In this document: positions 1,775 to 26,298 of the stretch, piece after piece
Layout of the letters: each line of letters starts with the position of its first letter
Numbering within the stretch: the stretch's first letter is position 1
From: a virus
Length of the DNA: 26,298 nt
Direction: 5' to 3' (one strand)
IMG/VR virus record: IMGVR_UViG_3300003691_000042
Coordinates: 1-26,298 of that record
Program-made: the position numbers and the translations under genes
The notes under the pieces: model-generated
Told to the model about the DNA's origin: nothing
The model's database searches: none
The model's input: the letters and a program-made list of their open reading frames with translations, nothing else

Positions 1775-1796
1775 TACTTATTTGTTTTAAACAAAG

Positions 1797-1836
1797 ATGC
1801 CCGACCGTATTAAACCGGTCGGGCATTATTGTTTGT
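1797..1836 (+). terminator. strong intrinsic terminator ending the early operon
   Basis: A perfect 11-bp stem (ATGCCCGACCG at 1797-1807 with CGGTCGGGCAT at 1816-1826) has an 8-base loop. The flanks AAACAA and TTGTTT can extend the pairing. A T-rich tail follows. It separates the early genes from the Mor-like regulator. Confidence 0.85.
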
Positions 1837-1911: not shown

Positions 1912-2484
1912 ATGGATCTGAGAGAAGAATATTTGGAGCACATGAAAAAATTAAAACCAATGGCTGAAGATCTTCCGGGGGAACTGCCGATGATCTCAAA
2001 TGTTATTGAAGAGTCAGCTCCAGGTATGGGCGTCAAGATCACCATGCACCTTGCTACAGCCTACAGAGGGATAAAGGTATATTGGCACTCTCTTGACGGA
2101 TCAATACTCTTGCAGGACTACGCAAGAGGGAAATGGCCTGTTTCCCCCGATGAATTAAAGGAAACAAACTTGCATCACCTTCCTTCAAACGATTTACGGA
2201 TGATTGCTTCTTCCATATCAGAAGTGGCAGCTGGTATGGGGATACAAATCACTCTACGCCTTGCATGGGCATTCCGTGGCATGGTCACCCACTGGCACAA
2301 CATTGATAGGATAACCGAGGCCCACCGTAACTACTGGCTTATGAAACGTTATGATCTGGGGGATGTTACCGGGCGAGAACTTGCTATGGCCGTGGGGATC
2401 AGTCAGCGCAGATCTGAGGATATTCTATCCGGAAATATAGGCGGTACTCATATTGATTCGAGGCAAATTAGATTGTTTGATTAA
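1912..2484 (+). CDS. Mor/C-like late transcription activator with duplicated N-terminal domain
   Basis: This protein resembles the Mor/C activators of phage Mu, which switch on middle and late transcription. From the ATG at 1912 it has 190 residues. AAAAGG about eight bases upstream supports this start over the GTG at 1903. Residues 21-62 and 90-132 are two copies of one module, recognisable by GMGVKITMHLATAYRG in the first and GMGIQITLRLAWAFRG in the second. In Mor the matching region is the dimerisation domain, present once. Residues 145-175 (GDVTGRELAMAVGISQRRSE) form the single C-terminal helix-turn-helix. The gene stands alone between a terminator and a non-coding region, upstream of all late genes, which fits its role. 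The family assignment is from motif pattern and position. Confidence 0.75.
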   Translation: MDLREEYLEHMKKLKPMAEDLPGELPMISNVIEESAPGMGVKITMHLATAYRGIKVYWHSLDGSILLQDYARGKWPVSPDELKETNLHHLPSNDLRMIASSISEVAAGMGIQITLRLAWAFRGMVTHWHNIDRITEAHRNYWLMKRYDLGDVTGRELAMAVGISQRRSEDILSGNIGGTHIDSRQIRLFD

Positions 2485-2696
2485 AAAATATACGGGCTCC
2501 ATATCCTTTTGTGCTGATGAGGACCGGCCACCCGTTAATAACTGGCCGGGTAAACAAAAGATCAGGGATCGTCGTTAACCTGATGAATTAGCACATACGA
2601 CCCATTACTTTAAGAGAAATTTTTATTTGAGTAAGTAGCGCAAACGGTAAAGCGCAGCCATAAAAGGGATAAGGTGTCGGCAATTCAATAACATTA
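2485..2696. other. non-coding, structured interval between activator and late-promoter cassette
   Basis: No convincing gene is seen here. A hairpin CCGGCCA (2524-2530) with TGGCCGG (2543-2549) is visible, and an alternative pairing ACCCG/CGGGT uses the same bases. CTTTTGT just upstream can pair with ACAAAAG just downstream, and an outer TGTGCT/AGCACA pair encloses the whole. There is no T-tract, so it is not an obvious terminator. Around 2636-2690 the text looks like the D-arm of a tRNA (GCGC-AAACGGTAAA-GCGC), but acceptor and T stems do not form. Confidence 0.45.
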
Positions 2697-2732
2697 AAGG
2701 CTGTGTCCATCCGGACGCGGCCTTTTCTTTTT
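2697..2732 (+). terminator. intrinsic terminator in repeat copy 1
   Basis: GGCTGTGTCC pairs with GGACGCGGCC around the loop ATCC, using two G-U pairs. It is followed by TTTTCTTTTT. It would stop any transcription arriving from the regulator region before the late promoter. Confidence 0.8.
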
Positions 2733-2739
2733 CAATCTT

Positions 2740-2783
2740 CCGCAATGCGGTGTCTACCCCGCTTCCGTCCTGCCATGTATATT
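2740..2783 (+). promoter_or_regulatory. candidate activator-dependent late promoter, copy 1
   Basis: The dyad CCGCAATGCGG (2740-2750) is 33 bases, centre to first base, from the -10-like TATATT (2778-2783). If TATATT is the -10 box, the dyad is centred near -45, where Mor binds at the Mu Pm promoter (about -43.5). No -35 box is present. The same dyad, spacing and -10 occur at 11471-11514. Confidence 0.55.
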
Positions 2784-2836: not shown

Positions 2837-3433
2837 TTGAATTTAAACGATGAAATAAACATAACACCTTTGTGGCAATGGCCGCTTGTCCTCATGGCTC
2901 CAGCTATGGGCAGTAGCTTGGCCTCAATTGTAGACCCTGAGAGCGTATACCTCAAACTGCTCTATGGTTCCTTATCCCTATTCTTGATGTGGGCAGGCCC
3001 GGCCTTGTTCCAAAAGGTTTTCAGGTTCAGTGCAGATATCTGGCACGGAAAAGGGATGATCCGGCGTGATCTGGATAGCGGCGCAAAACAATGCGCCCGG
3101 ATTTATCTTGGCAGAGACCGGCCTTCTTTTCTCCTGGCTCCGCTCTCCTTCTGTTTTCTCAAGTGGACATTTACAGTCGGCGAAATTGATATAAATACCG
3201 GCTCCATTTCTGTGGGGAAATGTTTTGTCACAAACCTAGTGCAAGAAGAAAAACAGTGCAGGGCTATTGGGACAAATGATCTCATTACCGGGGTAGCAGC
3301 TAGGCACATAATACAGATCGAACGTGATATCCGTCGAAGAAGTCATTCGTTCCGGAATAGCAGTAAGGAACTGCTGGTAATAAATAAATTGCGCGACTCT
3401 GGCTTGATAATTAAAGAGGATGTTTCTCAATGA
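2837..3433 (+). CDS. predicted two-helix inner-membrane protein, first late gene
   Basis: I do not recognise this 198-residue protein. Two hydrophobic stretches near the N-terminus (about residues 13-31 and 38-58) look like membrane helices. The rest is a soluble, basic domain of about 135 residues containing RDIRRRSHSFR. The start is a TTG with GGAG seven bases upstream, and no better ATG fits. It is the first gene after late-promoter cassette 1 and overlaps the following lipoprotein gene by four bases (ATGA). In Mu the matching place holds the lysis genes, so a lysis role (holin-like or regulator) is possible, but nothing in the sequence proves it. No lysozyme, amidase or peptidase motif is visible. 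Confidence 0.65.
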   Translation: MNLNDEINITPLWQWPLVLMAPAMGSSLASIVDPESVYLKLLYGSLSLFLMWAGPALFQKVFRFSADIWHGKGMIRRDLDSGAKQCARIYLGRDRPSFLLAPLSFCFLKWTFTVGEIDINTGSISVGKCFVTNLVQEEKQCRAIGTNDLITGVAARHIIQIERDIRRRSHSFRNSSKELLVINKLRDSGLIIKEDVSQ

Positions 3434-4092
3434 AACCGCTCATCATCTCAGCAATAGCCCTGGCCCTGCTCTCTGGCTGCTCCTCAAAAGTTTATTACGA
3501 GCAACAGCCAAAACGTGATAGTGCCGAGGAGAAAAGAGTCATTGCTATTGGTGAAGGCCTTGGAAAAGTAGTTGCGGCATTTAGGCGAGGCGCTGATCAG
3601 CGCGTCGCCCATCGGCCCAATGCTAAATCGGCACAAAAAAATCTTGAATTTAGTGATGCAGCAATAGCAGAGAGTTTTGAAAACCGTATTCCATACGATG
3701 CGGAGGTAGACAGGTTAGAGGCTCCGGTCGAGGGCACCGGGCAAGCCATAATCATCCACAATCAACCGGCTGAATCGCTGCTGCTCCAGTACATTATGCT
3801 GGAGCGGCAAGCGGTTGCTAAACAGGCGGCGGCAGCAGAAGAAACAAAACAATTAAAAGAAATTATGGCAGCGTATACCAACGCTGTGCTGAAAAAACAA
3901 CCAGAACAAGCAGCACCATATACCGGAAAATCTACCATGAATAAGGTGGCCGATGCCCTGCCATTTCTTGGCACCATCATGGGCATGAATAGCCTTGGTA
4001 AAGCTGGTATTACTGGGGCAATTGGTGATACATCATCAAATCCAGTAACAACAATTATAAAAAATACAACCACTAACAGCGGAATAGAGTAA
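3430..4092 (+). CDS. predicted lipoprotein, possible lysis/spanin role
   Basis: The 220-residue protein begins with a clear lipoprotein signal peptide: a positively charged start, the hydrophobic core LIISAIALALL and the lipobox LLSGC with the acylated cysteine at residue 17. The mature part is charged with an Ala-rich helical stretch (about residues 122-160). Near the C-terminus is a moderately hydrophobic segment (about 177-197, ALPFLGTIMGMNSLG). An outer-membrane lipoprotein with a helical middle and a hydrophobic C-terminus would be compatible with a unimolecular spanin. The hydrophobic segment is weak, though, and other roles such as superinfection exclusion remain open. It starts inside the stop of the preceding gene (ATGA). 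Confidence 0.6.
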   Translation: MKPLIISAIALALLSGCSSKVYYEQQPKRDSAEEKRVIAIGEGLGKVVAAFRRGADQRVAHRPNAKSAQKNLEFSDAAIAESFENRIPYDAEVDRLEAPVEGTGQAIIIHNQPAESLLLQYIMLERQAVAKQAAAAEETKQLKEIMAAYTNAVLKKQPEQAAPYTGKSTMNKVADALPFLGTIMGMNSLGKAGITGAIGDTSSNPVTTIIKNTTTNSGIE

Positions 4093-11427: not shown

Positions 11428-11463
11428 AAGGCTGTGTCCATCCGGACGCGGCCTTTTCTTTTT
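11428..11463 (+). terminator. intrinsic terminator in repeat copy 2
   Basis: GGCTGTGTCC/GGACGCGGCC stem with loop ATCC, followed by TTTTCTTTTTT. It ends the operon that finishes with the G-like gene. Confidence 0.8.
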
Positions 11464-11470
11464 TAATCTT

Positions 11471-11514
11471 CCGCAATGCGGTGTCTACCCTTCTTCCTTC
11501 TTGCCATGTATATT
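11471..11514 (+). promoter_or_regulatory. candidate activator-dependent late promoter, copy 2
   Basis: The dyad CCGCAATGCGG (11471-11481) and TATATT (11509-11514) have the same 33-base spacing as copy 1. The start codon of the protease gene lies about 40 bases downstream of TATATT. There is no -35 box. Confidence 0.55.
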
Positions 11515-11553
11515 TTCAATAAATCAAACATTGAAACAAGAGGAGGATGTCAT

Positions 11554-12672
11554 ATGTCCGATGAAGAAAAAGGGCTTTCCGGTTGGATTACTATTTTTGC
11601 AGGCGGAAAACAAACCGACATGGATGGGGTCGAACATAACGGAGACGATCTGATTGACCAGGCTGTCTCTTCGTTTGACCCGGCATTCCATGAACCACCG
11701 GCTGTTATAGGTCACCCGCAGGACAACAGCCCCGCATGGGCATGGGTTTCAGGATTAAAGACTGAGGTAGCCGACGTCGGTGGGCAAATGAGAAAAACCC
11801 TGCTGGCAAAATTTAGGGACACTGTGCCTGAATTTCAAGAATGGGTAGAGAACAAAAGATATAAAAAACGTTCTGCTTCTTTTTACCCAGATGGCAGATT
11901 ACGTCATGTGGGATGGCTCGGTGCGATGCCGCCTGCAGTTAAGGGGCTCCCTGATCCGCAGTTTGCCGAGGGCGAGGCGGTTGTTTTCGCTTTTGCCGAG
12001 GATTCCCCACCCGCTGATGATGCAGGGATGATCGTCAAAATGTATAATTTACTCAAGACATGGGTAAATGATCAGGATCCTAAAGAGGTGGCTGAAAAAG
12101 AAGAAGACCCTGCCCAACAAGGTCTGGATGAAAATAATAATTTCAAGGAGGATGAAACGGATATGGCTGGATTGTCAGAAGAACAAGTAAAAGAGCGAGA
12201 GGAAGCCGCACAGCTGAAAGGTAAACAGGAAGGCAAGGCCGCTGCCTTTGCTGAATTCCAAAAGCAGCAGGCAGGCCGCAAGATTTCTATTTATTTAGCC
12301 ACCCCCGTGAAAGAGGGTGGACCTGTACCAGCTTTGGTTGATGCAGGGCTTTCAAAGTTTTTGGAACGGATAGACAGTGTTTCATCTTTTGCTTTTTCGG
12401 AGGATGACGGCACGGAAAAACAGACAGATCTTGATTTCTTCATTGAGCATATCGCGCCCCGGCTGAAATCTCCAAAATTTGGAGAACACGCGGGCCGAAG
12501 AAATGCGCCGAATTTTGCAGAAGATGGCGGCACAGAAGATCTTGACCCCGTTGCAGTGGGGACTGCGGCAAAAGCCTACAGATTTTCCGAGAAACAGAAG
12601 GGAAATGCACTTACCGGCGCACAGGCTGACAATTATGTACGTGAAAACTGGAATGAATTTGAGGGGAAATAA
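11554..12672 (+). CDS. Mu I-like head maturation protease with C-terminal scaffold region
   Basis: This is a prohead protease/scaffold polyprotein like Mu gene I. The start is the ATG at 11554 with AGAGGAGG upstream; a further upstream frame-open ATG at 11476 lies inside the promoter repeat and is unlikely. The N-terminal half (residues 1-160) has the family's pattern GWITIFAGGKQ, then PAVIGHP with His near 51, the segment RSASFYPDG with Ser near 108, and LRHVGWLGAMPPAVKGL. Together these are the likely catalytic His and Ser. The C-terminal half is charged, helical and Gln/Glu/Lys-rich, as in scaffolds. An internal in-frame start at 12163 probably makes the scaffold alone. The stop overlaps the next gene's ATG by one base. 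Confidence 0.85.
   Translation: MSDEEKGLSGWITIFAGGKQTDMDGVEHNGDDLIDQAVSSFDPAFHEPPAVIGHPQDNSPAWAWVSGLKTEVADVGGQMRKTLLAKFRDTVPEFQEWVENKRYKKRSASFYPDGRLRHVGWLGAMPPAVKGLPDPQFAEGEAVVFAFAEDSPPADDAGMIVKMYNLLKTWVNDQDPKEVAEKEEDPAQQGLDENNNFKEDETDMAGLSEEQVKEREEAAQLKGKQEGKAAAFAEFQKQQAGRKISIYLATPVKEGGPVPALVDAGLSKFLERIDSVSSFAFSEDDGTEKQTDLDFFIEHIAPRLKSPKFGEHAGRRNAPNFAEDGGTEDLDPVAVGTAAKAYRFSEKQKGNALTGAQADNYVRENWNEFEGK
12163..12672 (+). CDS. nested in-frame scaffold product (Mu Z-like)
   Basis: Within the protease gene, AAGGAGG at 12145-12151 precedes an in-frame ATG at 12163 (MAGLSEEQVKEREEAAQLKG). The product would have 169 residues and correspond to the scaffold half alone. In Mu the scaffold Z is made from inside gene I in this way. 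The Shine-Dalgarno match is as good as that of the full gene, although its spacing of 11 bases is on the long side. Confidence 0.65.
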   Translation: MAGLSEEQVKEREEAAQLKGKQEGKAAAFAEFQKQQAGRKISIYLATPVKEGGPVPALVDAGLSKFLERIDSVSSFAFSEDDGTEKQTDLDFFIEHIAPRLKSPKFGEHAGRRNAPNFAEDGGTEDLDPVAVGTAAKAYRFSEKQKGNALTGAQADNYVRENWNEFEGK

Positions 12673-25305: not shown

Positions 25306-26298
25306 TTAAAACAGCGGAGCACCGTCATTTTCCCGGCTGATCAGAGCCGCTCCCACCGCATTCCCTACCTCATAATGCTCAGGAAAACGAACCGTGGTGT
25401 GCAAACGCTCCGCCACGGCAGGCAGAAAACAGCTGGCTGCCGCACCGATCCCGATAATCGGCACCTTCACCGCAACCCGGAGCGAGAACAGCTCGTTATC
25501 CATGCTGCTCAGAAAGGGCGTCGCCTCAACATCCTGCCAAACCTTACGCCCGAGATAATCAAGAATGATGCCCTCAATGGTCTTTTCCGCTTCCGCCACC
25601 ACCTGAAGACAGAGGTACTCAATGCTCATATCTAAGGAGGCGGCCAAGGCACGGGCCCCGTGCTCGGCCTGCTCCTTGCTGCCGATATCCAGCTTCCCCA
25701 GAACATGCAGGTCATCAGTCGGGGTGAAACCGGCCATCCTGACCTGCTGAAGATAGGCCAAACGCTCCAGCCGCTTTTTAAGGAAAATCCCAGCCAAGCC
25801 GGTTTGTTGGGTCAACATCTCCAAATTGGCCGGACCATGCTCCCGAAGGCAAAAGAGTATCTCGTCCTCACTGACGACCTCATCACTCAATCCCTCAACT
25901 GGCAAAACCACAGCATTACGCAGCCCGCAGCCCAACCATTGCTCAGGATCGGGTATATCCTCGGTCATACAGAGAGGCTGAACCCGTGTTGCTTCCAGGC
26001 GAATCTTTGGCCGCTGTTTGCAACCGCCTTCCAGATCCAAAGAACAATCATAATCTGAAGAACAGATGACATGGGAATCCCCGCCACCCGCCGCCGTATA
26101 CATATCAATGGCTTCAACATGGGTTTTCCATTGCCCGATCCGGCAGCCTTGATCGCTCAGAACCGGGTGCCCGTCCCGAATCATGCAGACATCCGTGGTC
26201 GTGCCTCCCACATCAACAACGAGGGCCGTAGGCTCTCCGGCTGTACAGCCAAAACGGGCTGTGGCTGCCGGACCGCTGGCCATAGTGATCGCAGCGCG
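25306..26298 (-). CDS. hydantoinase/oxoprolinase family protein, C-terminal part (chromosomal, cut by window edge)
   Basis: This is the end of an HyuA/5-oxoprolinase-type ATP-dependent hydrolase or ketone/acetone carboxylase-like subunit. The frame is open to the window edge, so the N-terminus is missing; the visible methionine at 26283 is internal. The family's second phosphate-binding signature is clear in SGPAAT followed by VVDVGGTTTDVCMI, an actin-like ATPase element. AAGGGDSH follows further on, where the family keeps its catalytic GGGS/D-like loop. The C-terminus has GIGAAASCFLPAVAERL and a final GNAVGAALI, also typical. It belongs to the host, is more GC-rich than the phage, and lies just outside the prophage. 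Confidence 0.85.
   Translation of the reverse strand, partial: RAAITMASGPAATARFGCTAGEPTALVVDVGGTTTDVCMIRDGHPVLSDQGCRIGQWKTHVEAIDMYTAAGGGDSHVICSSDYDCSLDLEGGCKQRPKIRLEATRVQPLCMTEDIPDPEQWLGCGLRNAVVLPVEGLSDEVVSEDEILFCLREHGPANLEMLTQQTGLAGIFLKKRLERLAYLQQVRMAGFTPTDDLHVLGKLDIGSKEQAEHGARALAASLDMSIEYLCLQVVAEAEKTIEGIILDYLGRKVWQDVEATPFLSSMDNELFSLRVAVKVPIIGIGAAASCFLPAVAERLHTTVRFPEHYEVGNAVGAALISRENDGAPLF

Follow-up and report, generated by a model that had tools for sequence, protein, structure and literature searches.

We describe a protein of 190 residues, related to Mor and C of phage Mu, in which the N-terminal pairing half is present twice in one chain and is followed by only one helix-turn-helix (HTH). 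Its gene lies in a virus contig of 26.3 kb, apparently a fragment; the whole contig, 26,298 nucleotides in length, is referred to below as the window, and the protein as the window activator. The explanation that we favour on balance is that this is a Mor-type late-operon activator with its pairing core built inside a single chain. Activation of late transcription, taken by itself, we hold with considerable confidence. According to this proposal, the two halves would pair within the chain to give the Mor dimerisation core as a pseudo-dimer, the protein would bind a dyad near −45 of each of two late promoters, one upstream of 2837 and the other upstream of 11554, and the bound activator would recruit RNA polymerase at these promoters, which carry no −35 element.

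An internal repeat related to the Mor family

The gene starts with the ATG at 1912, and an AAAAGG sequence ends at 1903 upstream of it. Local alignment of residues 1-82 with residues 83-190 of the product gave a gap-free match between residues 24-62 and 94-132 with a score of 108, which was reached by none of 5000 shuffles, the best of them scoring 47. Over a 42-residue block the two copies agree at 18 residues and at 63 of the 126 bases, and the identical bases are distributed over the first, second and third codon positions as 22, 28 and 13 out of 42, as would be expected if selection at the protein level had kept both copies. These figures indicate that the duplication is old and that both copies look constrained as protein. 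The earlier note had placed the repeat at residues 21-62 and 90-132 and had seen only one HTH after it; both observations stand, with the repeated unit being somewhat longer than first given (about residues 9-63 and 79-133) and made up, in each copy, of two helices and a strand together with an 'LP' stretch. The short linker leaves no room for an HTH after unit 1, and the single HTH of the chain, located by the profile described below and by AF2, is C-terminal to both units (Table 1).

Mor-type open reading frames (ORFs) were searched for at the loci of relatives of the window terminase (53 viral, 33 genome) and of the window portal protein (80 loci), and a profile was made of 18 single-copy Mor-type proteins without any window sequence. 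This single-copy profile gave two matches to the window activator, one of 24.1 bits over residues 8-63 and one of 46.8 bits over residues 86-189; both units and the C-terminal HTH are thus matched in collinear order, the placement of the HTH being seen with AF2 and VIA-align as well. When the units were searched separately, as the earlier note had suggested, each matched: unit 1 (residues 1-82) scored 27.1 bits, the best of 20000 shuffles scoring 9.5, and unit 2 scored 17.4 bits, below unit 1. The Mor/C-like character assigned to the protein in that note is supported by these matches.

A Pfam search with the window activator gave no match at E ≤ 10 and thus did not reach the gathering cut-off of PF08765 (24.9 bits), and we do not file the protein under that family as curated. 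In PHROGs it matched phrog_836, 'late transcriptional activator', at an E value of only 0.33. The link to Mor is made by way of single-copy relatives. The nearest of these, L112, L103, L178 and L179, all have a 'PGxGV' insert. Unit 1 is identical to L112 at 25 of 50 positions and unit 2 at 20 of 44, the two units being identical to each other at 21 of 49. L112 and L103 are matched by phrog_836 with E values of 1.4e-14 and 8.1e-10, and the PF08765 scores of L179, L103 and L112 are 40.3, 30.6 and 22.9 bits, to be read against the cut-off of 24.9. For the window activator as a whole, peptide patterns found no close relative in IMG/VR or in the genome collection, the phage records contained no convincing one, and a sequence search of the PDB gave chance matches only.

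Table 1. Features of the activator gene and of the two promoter modules in the window
Feature	Position	Strand	Basis
Terminator-like hairpin upstream of the activator gene	1796..1827	+	
Two-unit Mor-type activator gene, 190 aa	1912..2484	+	sequence, translation, profile match
Unit 1, aa about 9-63: LP stretch, helices 25-35 and 40-50, strand 55-57	1936..2100	+	single-copy profile, AF2
Linker between units, aa about 64-78	2101..2145	+	translation, AF2
Unit 2, aa about 79-133: helices 93-105 and 110-120, strand 125-127	2146..2310	+	profile, AF2
Connecting helix, aa 132-148	2305..2355	+	AF2
HTH, aa about 149-175; helices 154-161 and 165-172	2356..2436	+	profile, AF2, VIA-align
C-terminal Q..LF motif, common to single-copy relatives	2464..2478	+	comparison with relatives
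Terminator-like hairpin, module copy A	2696..2725	+	
Dyad CCGCA-A-TGCGG (CCGCAATGCGG), copy A; presumed activator site	2740..2750	+	
-10-like TATATT, copy A	2778..2783	+	
Terminator part, module copy B	11428..11463	+	
Dyad CCGCA-A-TGCGG (CCGCAATGCGG), copy B; before head protease gene	11471..11481	+	
-10-like TATATT, copy B	11509..11514	+	

Gene order and the duplicated promoter module

The activator gene is preceded by an unknown ORF, a predicted 3′-5′ exonuclease, a small protein and then a terminator-like hairpin. It is followed, in order, by genes for a virion structural protein, the large terminase, portal, minor head protein, neck protein, protease, scaffold, major head protein, adaptor and tape measure. 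Relatives of the portal protein are found in Chromohalobacter phage YPCBV-1 and in Mu-like phages including JD18 and B3. This gene order and the portal relatives place the activator gene first in the late region of a transposable phage of the B3/D3112 kind. No transposase was seen in this seemingly fragmentary record, and a hydantoinase-like gene at its end (25306-26283, − strand) is probably host chromosome beside the prophage end. No second Mor-type ORF was present among the 472 window ORFs of at least 30 aa. The earlier remark that a separate C gene is not visible is therefore accurate for the window and, the record being fragmentary, does not extend to the phage as a whole; the note's suggestion that one protein may do the work of both Mor and C is accordingly a conjecture.

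An 87-bp module occurs at about 2697-2783 and again at about 11428-11514, with 82 of 87 positions identical, and the two copies stand before the two main late operons. Each copy is composed of a terminator-like hairpin, the dyad CCGCA-A-TGCGG and the sequence TATATT, and the distance from the dyad centre to the first base of TATATT is 33 bp in both. The window contains the dyad at these two places only, and 100 shuffles contained none. No other inverted repeat with at least 4 of 5 bp matching is common to the two copies, apart from the dyad's own shifted form, and no sigma70-type −35/−10 site was matched at the module on the + strand. With +1 assumed to lie 12 bases after the first base of TATATT, the dyad is centred near −45. 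The listed start of the head protease ORF, 11476, falls within copy B of the dyad; the ATG at 11554, which follows GAGGAGG (11540-11546), is the likelier start. The terminator tail of the module, CGGCCTTTTCTTTT, recurs at 16-29, where the record is cut off on its left side. A 19-base pattern taken from the module matched no other viral contig, and nothing clearly equivalent to a repeated module was seen in the single-copy relatives examined.

We infer from its placement that the dyad is the site bound by the window activator, as had been suggested when the gene was first noted. The part of that suggestion which stands is a candidate dyad fittingly placed before both late operons. The half-sites are 1 bp apart, not 6 bp as in Mu Pm, so the dyad may not be read in the manner of Mu, or may be the site of another protein.

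Predicted pairing of the two units

The Mor dimer of Mu is intertwined. AF2 was run on the window activator as a monomer, with an alignment of 17 rows in which unit 1 and the HTH were represented and unit 2 was not, and gave a model with a mean pLDDT of 79.5 and a pTM of 0.66. The two units are folded alike in this model, each as two helices and a strand, and both are matched by the single-copy profile; the outcome that the earlier note had named as fatal to its reading, two segments folding differently or neither resembling Mor, is not what was found. The strands at residues 55-57 and 125-127 are the only ones in the model. Because DSSP assigns a strand only where a bridging partner exists, and each unit contributes one strand, the pairing in this model is between the two units of one chain. 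The model of a compact two-unit protein, L057 (pLDDT 85.8, pTM 0.65), also has its strands paired intrachain. The internal pseudo-dimer envisaged in the earlier note is consistent with these two monomer models, and we lean towards such intrachain pairing in the window activator; since a monomer model cannot show pairing between chains, this is support and not proof.

Structural comparison with Mu proteins was less discriminating. VIA-align placed residues 91-181 of the window activator on Mu C (9l0x_H; Z 4.1, rmsd 5.7, 84 aligned), residues 91-178 on Mor (1rr7; Z 4.0, rmsd 6.9, 86 aligned) and residues 75-179 on Mor (9l0y_M; Z 3.7, rmsd 7.2, 100 aligned), values of about 4 that unrelated HTH proteins equal or exceed. 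With the compact model, Mor and C were aligned over the HTH only, so that the VIA-align list is uninformative on the compact pairing core. Foldseek returned nothing at E ≤ 0.001 for the model of the window activator or for the compact one.

The main rival to an intrachain core is a homodimer with two stacked cores. In this arrangement the units of the late activator would pair between chains (1 with 1′, 2 with 2′), and the dimer would have two HTHs and an extra stacked core. The available parts of two papers describe Mu Mor and C as acting as dimers (PMC4287176, PMC4461284), and both units look intact and kept by selection; on the other hand, the AF2 monomers of two two-unit proteins pair their strands intrachain, even if a monomer run allows nothing else, and we consider the stacked homodimer unlikely. 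We give still less weight to the possibility that the doubled chain mimics a tetramer, two doubled chains supplying four pairing units with only two HTHs. The PDB entries 9l0x and 9l0y hold four chains each, of C and of Mor respectively, and 1rr7 and 9l0y hold five chains of Mor between them. The argument draws on these chain counts, and we regard the idea as improbable.

One could also envision that unit 1 has lost pairing and was recruited as a contact module for sigma, αCTD or a phage regulator. It lacks an HTH, and 24 of 42 positions are not the same as in unit 2; however, it keeps the glycines, the helix pattern and the strand of a pairing half and outscores unit 2 on the single-copy profile, which makes this quite improbable. 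That the window activator is an unrelated HTH protein with a chance resemblance to Mor is scarcely credible. Pfam is silent, and NCBIfam gives only HigA, below threshold (16.6 vs 47.7 bits), yet an independently built profile matches both units and the HTH in order, unit 1 is half identical to a protein that phrog_836 clearly recognises, and the gene order is as expected of Mor. A Mor-type late activator with its core formed within one chain is the reading that we carry forward.

Two-unit activators in other phages and comparison with known systems

Six of the 27 Mor-type ORFs (E ≤ 4e-4) at the terminase- and portal-relative loci have two units, namely the window activator, L053, L054, L056, L057 and L075; these calls were made by eye, and the profile gives two separate matches in each. 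In the Desulfobacterota, the phylum of L060, the Mor profile matched 38 of 395 genomes, and 12 of the 31 Mor-type ORFs at the 30 loci examined were read as two-unit (L203-L214), with the unit profile confirming two matches at E under 1 in only four (L203, L205, L208 and L214). A compact profile, made of ten compact two-unit proteins, matched 84 of 398 genomes of Pseudomonadota; among the 145 matches listed, 117 span both units, 24 cover the second unit and HTH only, and 4 are of other kinds. All 30 loci read there (L215-L244) have two units. The same profile matched 15 of 249 genomes in the phylum of a Clostridia genome, where one of the 20 matches listed spans both units, and none of 235 in the Myxococcota, a survey run without a positive control.

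Among phage records, a compact protein as query matched 149, 134 of them over at least 80% of the query, including DMS3, JBD30, MP29, MP38 and LPB1, with annotations such as 'late transcriptional activator', 'Mor' and 'putative integral membrane protein'. DMS3 gp19 can be read as a two-unit protein, and its match to phrog_836 extends over the full length (5-149 on 2-133), so that the two-unit form seems to underlie this family, though its name is silent on the matter. The search for other two-repeat Mor proteins that the earlier note called for has thus turned up a common compact form that includes known Pseudomonas phage activators. The note was right in its observation and largely right in its interpretation; what changes is the frame, in that doubling is a recurrent feature of Mor-type proteins, of which the window has an unusual form.

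Several loci differ in other ways. Two-unit activators with a longer first unit (GSRxWRxCVYIPKR) occur at L268-L289, of which L273 is not matched by the Pfam Mor family at E ≤ 0.01. Two − strand ORFs of L202 are adjacent single-copy Mor-type genes, like Mor and C of Mu. L029 and L031 have in common a strong promoter-like stretch (TTGACA ... TATAGTTACCCTG) right after the Mor-type gene, and late control there may therefore differ.

The units are spaced by 70 residues in the window activator and by about 40 in the compact form. We dropped the treatment of both as one family because the compact profile misses the window activator (E 3.4); the protein may work like the compact type without being filed as such. 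When the window activator was the query, only weak partial matches were obtained, in 7 of 398 Pseudomonadota genomes, and two further sets, of 8 and 3 loci, are single-copy. In a tree of 35 single units (44 columns), both window units group with the single-copy relatives (support 94/95), apart from the compact units, which suggests that the window doubling probably arose separately from the compact one. With p values of 0.13 to 0.16 in AU tests, a shared origin is not rejected, and a separate origin is therefore likely rather than shown.

A wider proposal, which we put forward tentatively and hold to be rather doubtful, is that among Mor-type activators two pairing halves have been fused at least twice, to form a covalent pseudo-dimer core that carries one HTH and would be placed on DNA unlike Mu Mor, a scheme undescribed for the D3112/DMS3-type late switch. 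If this is true, such a placement would explain why the half-sites of the presumed site are 6 bp apart centre to centre (1-bp spacer) rather than 11 (6-bp spacer). Full-text literature searches and the available parts of five papers (PMC4287176, PMC4461284, PMC8705779, PMC4378225, PMC4390567) gave no description of a doubled Mor. Mor/C has been used as a marker gene of transposable phages, according to the accessible part of one of these (PMC8705779). The doubled form is common, serves phages in frequent laboratory use and escapes Pfam in examples such as the window activator, and it therefore affects how transposable phages are found; it also bears on the modelling of the late switch in those phages. 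A doubled Mor is also a naturally occurring case in which to ask what part dimerisation plays in an activator that takes the place of the −35 element.

Of the known systems, the PGxGV single-copy proteins (L112, L103, L178, L179 and L296) are closest in sequence and have the insert before the second helix and the Q..LF end as in the window activator, but contain one unit instead of two. Mor and C of Mu (1rr7, 9l0y, 9l0x) have the same order of helix-helix-strand, connecting helix and HTH, and their gene likewise stands at the start of the middle/late region, whereas each chain contributes one pairing half and not two. In the parts of the literature available, Mu Pm is a promoter without a −35 whose Mor dyad is centred at −43.5 (PMC4287176) and has 5-bp arms and a 6-bp spacer (PMC4390567). 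The window resembles Pm, a promoter with a −10 element, in that its dyad, near −45 under the assumed +1, is accompanied by a −10-like TATATT and no sigma70-type site, and differs in that its 5-bp half-sites have a 1-bp spacer.

B3 ORF1 (YP_164037.1) likewise serves as late activator, in a transposable siphophage whose portal is related; it differs from the window activator in being a protein of 120 aa with one unit, in having phrog_532 as its best match, and in being encoded at the genome end on the strand opposite to the late genes. The late activator of the DMS3/JBD30/MP type (DMS3 gp19, phrog_836) shares with the window activator two pairing halves and one HTH per chain, the second unit coming after about 40 residues instead of 70 and the compact profile having no match to the window activator. 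The late-gene order of these phages is similar to that of the window, and two boxes are common to their intergenic regions at the window's two module positions. In DMS3 (L295), the regions 3160-3553 and 11820-12163, which precede the lysis operon and the head protease, both contain CGTTGAACCCCTTC and, 45-46 bp further on, TGGCGGCATG. These are perhaps two late control boxes, placed as in the window.
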